DNA of 64,000 bases from Pseudobdellovibrio sp. Its GTDB lineage: Bacteria; Bdellovibrionota; Bdellovibrionia; Bdellovibrionales; Bdellovibrionaceae. The stretch is from contig JAMPXC010000014.1 of assembly GCA_023701385.1 (NCBI GenBank), positions 1-64,000 on the forward strand, read 5' to 3'. The translations under genes and the position numbers were made by a program. This document shows positions 24,672 to 63,301 of this stretch, one piece after another. The first letter of the stretch is position 1; each line of letters begins with the position of its first letter. The notes under the pieces are model-generated. The model worked only from the letters and a program-made list of their open reading frames with translations, made no database searches and had not been told where the DNA came from.

Positions 24672-24698
24672 CTATCTCCCATTTCCGTGGGGTATCGG

Positions 24699-25277
24699 TC
24701 ACGAACTCCATAATTGCTGCCAATGATAGACAGAAAGTCCTCGTAACCGCTCTTTTTGGTAAGGAATCACACCTGTGACTTCTTTTTCGTTAAGTTGGAT
24801 ATAGTTTTTAACCGTTAAATAAGCTCTCCATCCGTGTACAACTCGCGTAAAAGGACGAAATTTCCAAACTTTCATAAATTTCTTTTTCTTACTGAGGGTA
24901 TCGGTCACTTCGCGAACTAAGTTCGCCTTCTGATATTCTTGCGCTATCTGCCCGGCAACAACCCTTAAAAAATGATGAGACATAGCACGACGAGGAACTC
25001 GAATATTTAAATGAATATGATCAAAGTTCACCGAACACTGTTCGACTTTAATAAAAAATCTTTTTGCATAACGATCTATAATTCTTTTAACCAACTTATA
25101 AGTTCGTGGAGATCTGAAGTTCAGTTTCAAGGCCGCTTTGTCAGCTTTCAAAACCACATGGTGTGGTTTTCGTGTAGACAGAGGGCGAAACTGGCGGCCT
25201 TTTCGCAGTTGGCGAAGACTTCCCCCATGACTATGGTTTAGGTTGTATTTAATAAGTTGATGATTTACGTGACCCAT
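24699..25277 (-). CDS. REP-associated tyrosine transposase (Y1/IS200-like)
   Basis: A 192-aa HUH-type single-strand transposase of the RAYT group. The HUH motif is HIHL at residues 87-90 in SVNFDHIHLNIRVPRR. The likely catalytic Tyr is Y159 in AYLTVKNYIQLNEKE. RQFRPLSTRKPHHVVLKA near the start matches the family opening. Such proteins act on REP hairpins rather than on classic IS ends, and structured repeats are found 2.3 and 4.3 kb away. The frame is intact. A copy of the flanking motif is embedded in codons for VREVTDTL. Confidence 0.87.
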   Translation of the reverse strand: MGHVNHQLIKYNLNHSHGGSLRQLRKGRQFRPLSTRKPHHVVLKADKAALKLNFRSPRTYKLVKRIIDRYAKRFFIKVEQCSVNFDHIHLNIRVPRRAMSHHFLRVVAGQIAQEYQKANLVREVTDTLSKKKKFMKVWKFRPFTRVVHGWRAYLTVKNYIQLNEKEVTGVIPYQKERLRGLSVYHWQQLWSS

Positions 25278-25413: not shown

Positions 25414-25445
25414 AAGTGACCGATACCCCTCGAAAGGTATCGTGG

Positions 25446-27614: not shown

Positions 27615-27709
27615 AGTCTGTGTTGTGACACAAAAATAGCAGGATGCTATTTTTGCGCGACAGCCCTGTAGCGCAGCGAAAGGGTCGAGGGCAGGAGCCC
27701 GAGACACAG
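27615..27709. repeat. Structured repeat, copy 1
   Basis: Shares a 30-nt core with copy 2 at 29606-29689, differing at one position: AAAAATAGC, a 5-nt loop, GCTATTTTT, then GCGCGA (27631-27660). After the core come two further hairpins, CCCT/AGGG and GGGC AGGA GCCC, and an outer CTGTGT/ACACAG stem. In copy 2 these parts have different sequences but still pair. It lies between the hydrolase gene and dciA. Confidence 0.7.
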
Positions 27710-27718
27710 CTGACGGAG

Positions 27719-28138
27719 TTACTTTTTAATAAATTTTTGTAAGTTGTTTTTGAAATCTTGGTTGTTTGATTGCGGAACGTTTTTACGATCCATAGTTACA
27801 CGAATCTCTTTAACCATATTCGAAGCATACTTTTGATTAATGGTATTTTTTATAGTCTCAGACATAAAACTAATCTGTGTTAGCCAAGTCGAGTTTTTTA
27901 CCCATAAAGTCAGAACACCCTGATGAAACGATACGGGTTCACAGCATTGCGCTGTTGTAGGGCCTACCACTTCGCTCCAGTTCATCCACAGCTTCCAACG
28001 TGAAAACTGATCGGCCATATGATCAATGCCAGAATCCTGTTTTTTACCGCCCACAGATTTCTCATTACGTCCTGAAAGCAGGCTCTGAAGCACTTCTGCG
28101 CTGGTTTTAAATTTAGGCTTACGATCGTTTTCTCTCAC
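27719..28138 (-). CDS. dciA: DciA-like protein (DUF721)
   Basis: A 139-aa protein whose C-terminal half matches the DUF721/DciA family: WKLWMNWSEVVGPTTAQCCEP, then GVLTLWVKNSTWLTQISFM and a terminal KEIRVTM strand. DciA proteins load or operate the replicative helicase DnaB in bacteria without DnaC. The N-terminal 60 residues are polar and probably disordered. The start is GTG at 28138 with AGGG about 7 nt upstream. It is divergent from trmFO and lacks a typical recF-gyrB neighbourhood here. Confidence 0.78.
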   Translation of the reverse strand: MRENDRKPKFKTSAEVLQSLLSGRNEKSVGGKKQDSGIDHMADQFSRWKLWMNWSEVVGPTTAQCCEPVSFHQGVLTLWVKNSTWLTQISFMSETIKNTINQKYASNMVKEIRVTMDRKNVPQSNNQDFKNNLQKFIKK

Positions 28139-28197
28139 AGTAAAACCCTATCCTATCCGCTTGCTTTTTGCGAAGGGAAAGCTTAGTTTTCGCATCT

Positions 28198-29589
28198 ATG
28201 CAATCTTCAGTGCAAAATAACTACAATCGCAATACAATTACCGTCGTCGGTGCTGGCTTAGCGGGCAGCGAATGCGCTCTGCAACTGGCCGATCTGGGAT
28301 ACAAAGTCGATTTAATCGAGATGAGAGGAGTTAAACAAACTCCCGCCCATAAAACAGAAAATTTTGCAGAATTAGTGTGCTCGAATTCCTTTGGCAGCAT
28401 GGGAGAAGTTTCTGCCCCCGGCCAATTAAAATGGGAAGCGCAAAAATTAAATTCACATATTTTAAAACAAGCTAAAGAAGCTTTTGTTCCTGCGGGCCAA
28501 GCCTTAGGAATCGATCGCGAACGTTTTGCCCAAGCCGTAACTGACGAAGTCGCAAAACACCCGAATATCACTGTTAAACGCGAAGTCGTTACTTCACTTG
28601 ATCAAATTCCCCGCCCCGCTGTTATTGCCACAGGCCCGTTAACTGATGAAGGCTTAGCTGAAAGCTTACAAAAACATTTCGGTGATGAGTTTTTATATTT
28701 CTTCGATGCGATCGCGCCGATTATCGACGCTGATAGCATCAACACAGACATTGCGTGGAAAGCGAATCGTTACGATAAAGTCGCTGGATCAGTGGATGCC
28801 TCTCGTGGTGATTACTACAACTGCCCGATGGATAAAGAGCAGTACAATGCTTTTATTCAAGCGATCACTGACGCCCGTAAAATTGAACCCAAACACTTTG
28901 AAACAACAGAATTTTTCGAAGGCTGTATGCCGATTGAAGTGATGGTTGAACGTGGCCCACAAACTTTACGTTTTGGCCCGATGAAACCGGTGGGTTTAGA
29001 TAATCCAAAAACCGGAAGATATCCTTACGCTGTTGTACAGCTCAGACAGGACAACAAAGAAGGCACGGCGTACAACATCGTGGGTTTTCAAACGCGTATG
29101 GCTTACGGCGAACAAACAAAAGTTTTTCGTATGATTCCGGGCTTAGAAAACGCCGAGTTTTTAAAACTAGGAAGCATTCATCGAAACATGTTCATCAATT
29201 CACCGAAGCGTCTAAATAAAGACCTTTCAAGCAAAAATGACCCTTGGTTATTTTTTGCAGGCCAAATCACCGGTGTTGAAGGTTACTTTGAATCAACATG
29301 TATTGGCTTGTTAGTGGCTAAATTTTTACATCAGAAATTATCAGATAAACCATTCACGGCACCGCCGCGTGAATCAGCTTTAGGTTCGTTACTTGAAGCG
29401 ATCACTGATGAATATAGAATTGATAACTTTCAGCCGACAAATATCAACTTCGGGCTTTTACCGCCGTTAGATCCGGCGTCTTTAGATGAAGACACGCAAA
29501 AACAATTAAAGCGTGATAAAAAATTAAAAAAATCATTACAAATAAAAAAAGCCCAAGATGCGTTAACAACCTGGGCTCAAAATTTATAG
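28198..29589 (+). CDS. trmFO: tRNA (uracil-5-)-methyltransferase TrmFO (folate/FAD dependent)
   Basis: Makes ribothymidine at position 54 of tRNA using methylene-THF and FAD. 463 aa. The FAD-binding GxGxxG is VVGAGLAGSECALQLAD at the start. ENFAELVCSNSFGS holds the conserved catalytic-region Cys, and the C-terminal FAD contact is GQITGVEGYFESTCIGLL. The ATG at 28198 gives the usual family start; a TTG at 28168 is a weaker choice. No ribosome site precedes the ATG, and TTGCTT/TAGTTT with a 17-nt spacer (28161-28189) would place transcription at the start codon. Confidence 0.93.
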   Translation: MQSSVQNNYNRNTITVVGAGLAGSECALQLADLGYKVDLIEMRGVKQTPAHKTENFAELVCSNSFGSMGEVSAPGQLKWEAQKLNSHILKQAKEAFVPAGQALGIDRERFAQAVTDEVAKHPNITVKREVVTSLDQIPRPAVIATGPLTDEGLAESLQKHFGDEFLYFFDAIAPIIDADSINTDIAWKANRYDKVAGSVDASRGDYYNCPMDKEQYNAFIQAITDARKIEPKHFETTEFFEGCMPIEVMVERGPQTLRFGPMKPVGLDNPKTGRYPYAVVQLRQDNKEGTAYNIVGFQTRMAYGEQTKVFRMIPGLENAEFLKLGSIHRNMFINSPKRLNKDLSSKNDPWLFFAGQITGVEGYFESTCIGLLVAKFLHQKLSDKPFTAPPRESALGSLLEAITDEYRIDNFQPTNINFGLLPPLDPASLDEDTQKQLKRDKKLKKSLQIKKAQDALTTWAQNL

Positions 29590-29605
29590 TTCTCATCTCA
29601 TTGCT

Positions 29606-29689
29606 CTGACGGCACGACAAAAATAGCAGGACGCTATTTTTGCGCGAAGCCCGAAGGGACGAAGGCAGAAGCCTGAGTCATGCCGTCAG
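29606..29689. repeat. Structured repeat, copy 2
   Basis: A 13-bp outer stem with one mismatch (CTGACGGCACGAC at 29606-29618 with GTCATGCCGTCAG at 29677-29689) encloses three hairpins: AAAAATAGC/GCTATTTTT (29619-29627/29633-29641), CCC GAA GGG, and AGGC AGAA GCCT. It shares hairpin 1 and the GCGCGA junction with copy 1 at 27615-27709. It lies between trmFO and the PLD gene, upstream of a separate terminator. Confidence 0.72.
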
Positions 29690-29733
29690 AAAGGCCGTCC
29701 AGGAAGGACAGCTAGCGCAGCAGCCAAACCAAT

Positions 29734-29768
29734 AAAAAAACCCAGGAAGTTTTCACCGCCTGGGTTTT
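29734..29768. terminator. Bidirectional intrinsic terminator
   Basis: AAAACCCAGG at 29737-29746 pairs with CCTGGGTTTT at 29759-29768 across a 12-nt loop. The plus strand ends in TTTT (for trmFO) and the minus strand in a run of seven T (for the PLD gene). It sits between convergent genes as expected. Confidence 0.85.
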
Positions 29769-63090: not shown

Positions 63091-63247
63091 TTCCCTTGTT
63101 ACAGAAGAAGTAATGAAAGAACCGTTCCACACTAAATGTAATTAAAGCCATAAGCGCCGTATCAGCGTAAGACGTGCCTGTCAGACTGCCGCTTTTGGGC
63201 TGACAGTCTAGTTAATATCTCAGAATGAGACTCTATCAGTTGTTAGC

Positions 63248-63301
63248 TGACACGGCCGCGAGCGGCCTTACTGCTTGTTGACACGGCCGCGAGCGGCCTT
63301 A
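63248..63301. repeat. Tandem pair of 23-bp palindromic repeats
   Basis: Two identical units at 63248-63270 and 63279-63301 are separated by 8 nt. Each contains GGCCGC-GA-GCGGCC, a perfect palindromic hairpin, flanked by TGACAC and TTA. The second unit ends in TTA, which is the stop codon of the last gene on the minus strand. With only two units this is not a CRISPR array. Confidence 0.7.

Follow-up and report, generated by a model that had tools for sequence, protein, structure and literature searches.

Miniature elements of the IS200/IS605 type have subterminal hairpins and insert without target duplication. The attachment sites of tyrosine integrases in tRNA genes are recognised by a crossover in the T-loop and a duplicated tRNA 3' end, and to our knowledge ordinary sites of this kind carry no three-hairpin insert. 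REP sequences are palindromes of 20-50 nt that follow a conserved tetranucleotide, mostly GTAG (PMC8266576), whereas CGTC-tagged REPs, palindromic repeats for which no dedicated transposase is known, bear an unpaired CGTC at one end (PMC3733652).

The first 64,000 nucleotides of a contig of Pseudobdellovibrio sp. (JAMPXC010000014.1 of assembly GCA_023701385.1; hereafter the window) contain two copies of an element, here called H, that partly resembles each of these. Like REP/REPIN sequences mobilised with a RAYT (TnpAREP), H consists of short dispersed palindromes with a strand-specific fold and many intergenic copies, but it differs in its three distinct hairpins in fixed order, the lack of a GTAG foot and of an associated RAYT, and the existence of a T-loop-specific form. 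It shares with CGTC-tagged REPs the lack of a known dedicated transposase, but is longer, has several hairpins and carries no terminal CGTC tag. As in IS200/IS605-derived miniature elements no target duplication is seen (one A is ambiguous); unlike them, H has no fixed 4-5-nt left-end target, mostly G or C at position -1 alone, and no parent IS with H ends was noticed among the loci read. The T-loop crossover and duplicated tRNA 3' end are as in tyrosine-integrase attachment sites, and a folded single-strand site may be common to H and integron attC. A literature search, with subscription journals mostly outside it, found no description of this family. H is a real and apparently undescribed family of folded mobile repeats that is distinct from RAYT substrates.

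Anatomy of H and its copies in the window

H begins with an A, continues through hairpin H1 (CAAAAATAGC-AGGAT-GCTATTTTTG), CGCG, H2 and H3, and closes with another A, in a length range of 63-95 nt overall and 64-95 nt in the window's genome, and without genes. H1 combines an A-rich stem with an AGGA loop, H2 is short, variable and often CCC-GNA-GGG, and H3 has tandem G-A pairs and an AGGA loop; the ends read ACAAAA... and ...(G/A)ACA. Copy 1, made up of H1, a variable H2 and H3, lies between dciA (- strand, gene end 27719) and the next - strand gene. As the preliminary description had noticed, the two copies around dciA-trmFO keep the first hairpin and GCGCGA. A 31-nt core, ACAAAAATAGCAGGA(T/C)GCTATTTTTGCGCGA, is found at 27630-27660 and 29617-29647 with 97% identity, and the hairpin that follows changes its sequence and still pairs (H3 in Table 1). 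The final A of copy 2 (29680) may be part of the target rather than of the element. At 63241-63301 the window also holds a tandem 31-nt repeat, 90% identical, that contains a GGCCGCGAGCGGCC hairpin.

Table 1 Features of the window in and around the two H copies
Feature	Position	Strand	Remarks
RAYT-like Y1 transposase gene (context only)	24699-25277	-	Y1_Tnp 20.9 bits, below Pfam cut-off of 23
H copy 1 (77 nt)	27630-27706	+	Covariance-model match 89.4 bits, E 7e-22, own genome
H1, copy 1	27631-27655	+	CAAAAATAGC-AGGAT-GCTATTTTTG
H3, copy 1	27684-27705	+	GTC-GA-GGGC-AGGA-GCCC-GA-GAC, tandem G-A pairs
Left arm of other dispersed repeat	29605-29614	+	TCTGACGGCA; H insertion target; outside H
H copy 2 (64 nt)	29617-29680	+	3' of trmFO; covariance-model match 77.3 bits, E 2e-18
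H1, copy 2	29618-29642	+	CAAAAATAGC-AGGAC-GCTATTTTTG
H2, copy 2	29650-29658	+	CCC-GAA-GGG, GNA triloop
H3, copy 2	29658-29679	+	GAC-GA-AGGC-AGAA-GCCT-GA-GTC
Right arm and tail of other repeat	29681-29736	+	TGCCGTCAGAAAGGCC...AGCGCAGCAGCC; outside H

Covariation and the folding strand

The H1 hairpin pattern had no match in 100 shuffles of the window, and a covariance model built from ten copies recovered 16 H copies from the window's genome at E <= 0.01, those ten included. Among the ten, 7 of the 19 pairs were changed on both sides, with 17 both-side-changed cells against 5.0 +/- 2.1 in shuffles. In 100 distinct copies from many genomes, double changes that preserve pairing were found in 18 of the 19 stem pairs (287 double-change cells vs. 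78 +/- 6 in shuffles), and the covariation score was 0.409 compared to 0.111 in shuffles and at most 0.061 in slid-structure controls; this alignment was fitted to the model and so favours covariation somewhat, and a separate MAFFT alignment agrees. The proposal, originally made from the two window copies, that covariation reflects selection on a single-stranded structure is therefore supported by the ten-copy and the 100-copy test alike, and the further copies it would predict do exist.

Two neighbouring positions of H3 have non-standard cells that almost without exception are G-A (46 and 53 cells), and 44 copies have G-A at both, nearly always in a pyrimidine-GA-purine context. Because the complementary strand would carry C-T mismatches instead, the strand with the AGGA loops is taken as the folding strand. 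The triloops of H2 are GNA in 60 of 67 cases, 58 of these 60 being closed by C-G. Exceptional stability in DNA is a property both of C(GNA)G loops, which make extra-stable mini-hairpins, and of Py-GA-Pu tandems. These loop types, together with the lack of conservation in the flanks, favour folding of H as single-stranded DNA rather than RNA.

The strong covariation, and the GGA present in the loops of H1 and H3, would also be expected of a structured RNA element, either a small RNA or a site for an RNA-binding protein such as a CsrA decoy. We consider this very unlikely, given that a search of Rfam yielded no H match above cut-off (the only matches above it were real tRNA and tmRNA), that the loop context is CAGGA and does not match the CsrA core ANGGA, and that neither the position relative to genes nor the upstream sequence is conserved. 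Moreover, crude ORF calls in genera g1 and g6 make the folded strand antisense to the genes on either side 34 times, against 8 times sense. Several copies are immediately next to a terminator, and some are located beyond one. It is possible that the orientation bias results from selection against transcription of the folded strand.

Neighbouring repeats and insertion sites

A RAYT gene 2.35 kb from copy 1, and the nature of H as a small dispersed palindromic repeat, had suggested that H might be a REP/REPIN-like substrate of this transposase. The likeness to REPs holds loosely but the link to RAYT is not supported, and we regard such a relationship as extremely improbable. Copy numbers of RAYT and H are unassociated over 141 genomes (Spearman 0.02, P 0.80; Fisher P 0.46): no RAYT match at E 1e-8 was found in the H-bearing genomes G066, G079, G061 and G072 (18, 14, 5 and 5 H copies, respectively), and five others (G027, G022, G113, G025 and G124) have 11-23 RAYT matches and zero H. 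In about 100 copies GTAG is absent from the hairpin foot and the sequence before H1 is variable. The RAYT gene is itself flanked not by H but by inverted GGGTATCGGTCAC motifs, at 24690-24702 (+) and 25416-25428 (-), which are better candidates for its own ends. The window's genome encodes several RAYT relatives, and most other matches to GGGTATCGGTCAC look like chance occurrences in coding sequence.

The preliminary description had further assigned to H a 13-bp outer stem at copy 2, and had regarded the outer stems of the two copies as covarying. Neither claim survives comparison with the rest of the genome. The stem of copy 2 (29605-29614/29681-29690), TCTGACGGCA/TGCCGTCAGA, is that of a separate dispersed repeat (TCTGACGGCACGATGCCGTCAGA), which occurs free of H in more than ten copies elsewhere in the genome, e.g. 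as TCTGACGGCACGATGCCGTCAGAAAGGC, and copy 2 is inserted in the loop of this repeat, between CACG and ATGCC. Copy 1 has no comparable stem; the two stems are simply different flanks and, since one of them belongs to another repeat, they do not covary as one element. An outer stem as a general part of H was likewise rejected, the flank-to-flank pairing of 18 copies (15 from the own genome and 3 from relatives) amounting to -12.2 kcal/mol vs. -12.0 kcal/mol with swapped flanks. The other repeat, seen at 29605-29736 and at loci L042-L055, has the form TCTGACGGCA-NGA-TGCCGTCAGAAAGGC...AGCGCAGCGGCC in its more than ten copies, and its loops, NGGA/CGA, resemble those of H.

Two orthologous empty sites and one paralogous one could be compared with occupied sites, ten further queries with joined flanks being mostly too diverged. 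In G062 a clean 63-nt H insert lies between GAGG and ACTG, and the orthologous site in G018 and G060 is empty (GAGGACTG, GAGG^ACTG), with no duplication, although a few other bases differ between the species. In G071, H is found between GGCGCCCGG and AT, and G073 and G068 have the empty form GGCGCCCGGATGG (GGCGCCCGG^ATGG), with small base changes beside the junction. The paralogous site, in the window's genome, is the repeat TCTGACGGCACG^ATGCCGTCAGA without H. The three comparisons show that H inserts without target duplication, a single A being ambiguous.

In the scattered genera, 60 of 70 copies have G or C immediately before H, and position -2 is variable. A test for a general preference of H for hairpin loops was negative, so that the insertions in T-loops and repeat loops may be special cases. 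At locus L143 relatives have H2-H3-like hairpins without H1, and hence H1, H2 and H3 may sometimes move separately. At loci L127, L129, L134, L178, L179, L196 and L214 of genus g6, H is part of a composite multi-hairpin structure enclosed by perfect inverted arms, which are 24-37 nt long and differ in sequence from copy to copy. An inverted target duplication produced by H was considered and rejected: relatives show one arm structure without H, and another site lacks both H and the arms, so H does not make the arms.

Distribution, tRNA T-loops and a proposed origin

Of 141 genomes of the order, 43 carry H. Copy number reaches 18 in genus g6, which we read as Bdellovibrio-like, and is 16 in the window's genome and 0-1 in its 13 congeners. 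Exact H1 matches elsewhere fall mainly in records named Bdellovibrionales, Bdellovibrionaceae, Bacteriovoracaceae and Oligoflexia, and neither of two H1 patterns was matched exactly in viral contigs. The matches in two records named Deferribacteraceae are essentially confined to H1 and are uncertain. In MAGs of that name, one locus (L159, 4753-5118) has H1-like hairpins about every 140 nt, and another (L153, 6431-6505) an H1-like hairpin that ends a duplicated 3' end of a protein gene.

The genera with scattered copies are g1, g2 and g6. In the others, a T-loop-like GTTC(G) or GTTTG immediately precedes H in 35 of 37 copies, and in many of these AATC... and a tRNA 3' end come after H. For 22 of the 37, the distance back to the end of an intact same-strand tRNA or tmRNA gene is 73-298 nt, mostly within 100 nt, and none of the 37 has a tRNA or tmRNA solely on the opposite strand. 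The intact genes are those of tRNA Ser, Pro, Arg, Glu, Gly, Met, Val and Gln as well as tmRNA. Duplication of the tRNA 3' end downstream of the intact gene is seen in up to 22 units, all from the non-scattered lineages; the window contains no tRNA. Between the tRNA and H lie, in many cases, the tRNA's own terminator and a segment, X, which in the clearest cases (L166, L158 and L216) is complementary to the T-arm and 3' end, as with GACAAGA/TCTTGTC in L166. The content of the units ranges from none, with a spacing of about 75 nt, through a pair that is toxin-antitoxin-like by sequence (G056; 1.8 kb) to 26.8 kb, and L216 consists of two tandem units.

The longest unit, G046:C3:235581-262513 (L247, L116), extends 26.8 kb from tRNA-Met to H and is likely an integrative element; it carries a T4SS coupling protein, Fic and a tyrosine integrase that adjoins H. 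A pattern for its attL gave zero matches, and the tRNA-Met was found by an upstream scan. This integrase was rejected as the owner of H: in 30 integrase loci a clear H was present at the query alone, its nearest homologues having none.

One possible explanation, though in our judgement a doubtful one, is that one family of integrative elements that target tRNA genes uses H itself as its attachment site. Folding of the single strand would pair X with the T-arm around H and so imitate a double-stranded attB, as attC does for integrons, and the scattered copies in Bdellovibrio-like genomes would be derivatives. The same T-loop position and strand across many genera, the wide range of spacings with tandem units, and the better match of X to its own 3' flank than to the flanks of other units (permutation P 0.0006) are all consistent with this. 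The difference in X pairing is modest, however (mean 7.7 vs. 7.0 nt), and the pairing is weak in many units; besides the H-free homologues of the G046 integrase, most units have no integrase that was seen nearby, and the scattered copies retain H but not X.

The reading that we favour, as somewhat probable, is that H is a mobile repeat of folded DNA, non-autonomous and linked to attachment sites in tRNA genes. One strand folds into the three hairpins. It is probably in this folded, single-stranded form that H is recognised by a recombinase acting in trans, our guess being a tyrosine recombinase, and joined to its target, either with no target duplication or with a duplication of one A. In most Bdellovibrionota lineages H occurs almost only at T-loop position G57/A58, in truncated 3' copies of tRNA or tmRNA a short way downstream of the intact genes. 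Given this confinement, H probably arose as the module by which integrative DNA attaches at tRNA genes, or else hitches on such a module. Spread to many intergenic sites, including the loops of other palindromic repeats, would then have taken place in the window's species and the Bdellovibrio-like genus. That no enzyme was found for H counts against this mobile-repeat reading.

Functionally, H probably either parasitises an integration process at tRNA sites that is based on single strands or serves as a module within it. It is also conceivable, if quite unlikely, that H is the mark of a novel system akin to integrons: an unrecognised recombinase would insert folded single-stranded cassettes, gene-bearing or not, into the T-loops of tRNA and tmRNA genes so that the tRNA 3' end is restored, and the folded site would have spread as a repeat through the genomes of predatory bacteria. 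An element that is dispersed in predators yet fixed at the T-loop in their relatives would link REP-like repeats and tRNA attachment sites, which have been studied apart. For Bdellovibrionota, H offers a testable way into the integration of folded single-stranded DNA, and a new recombinase may come to light.
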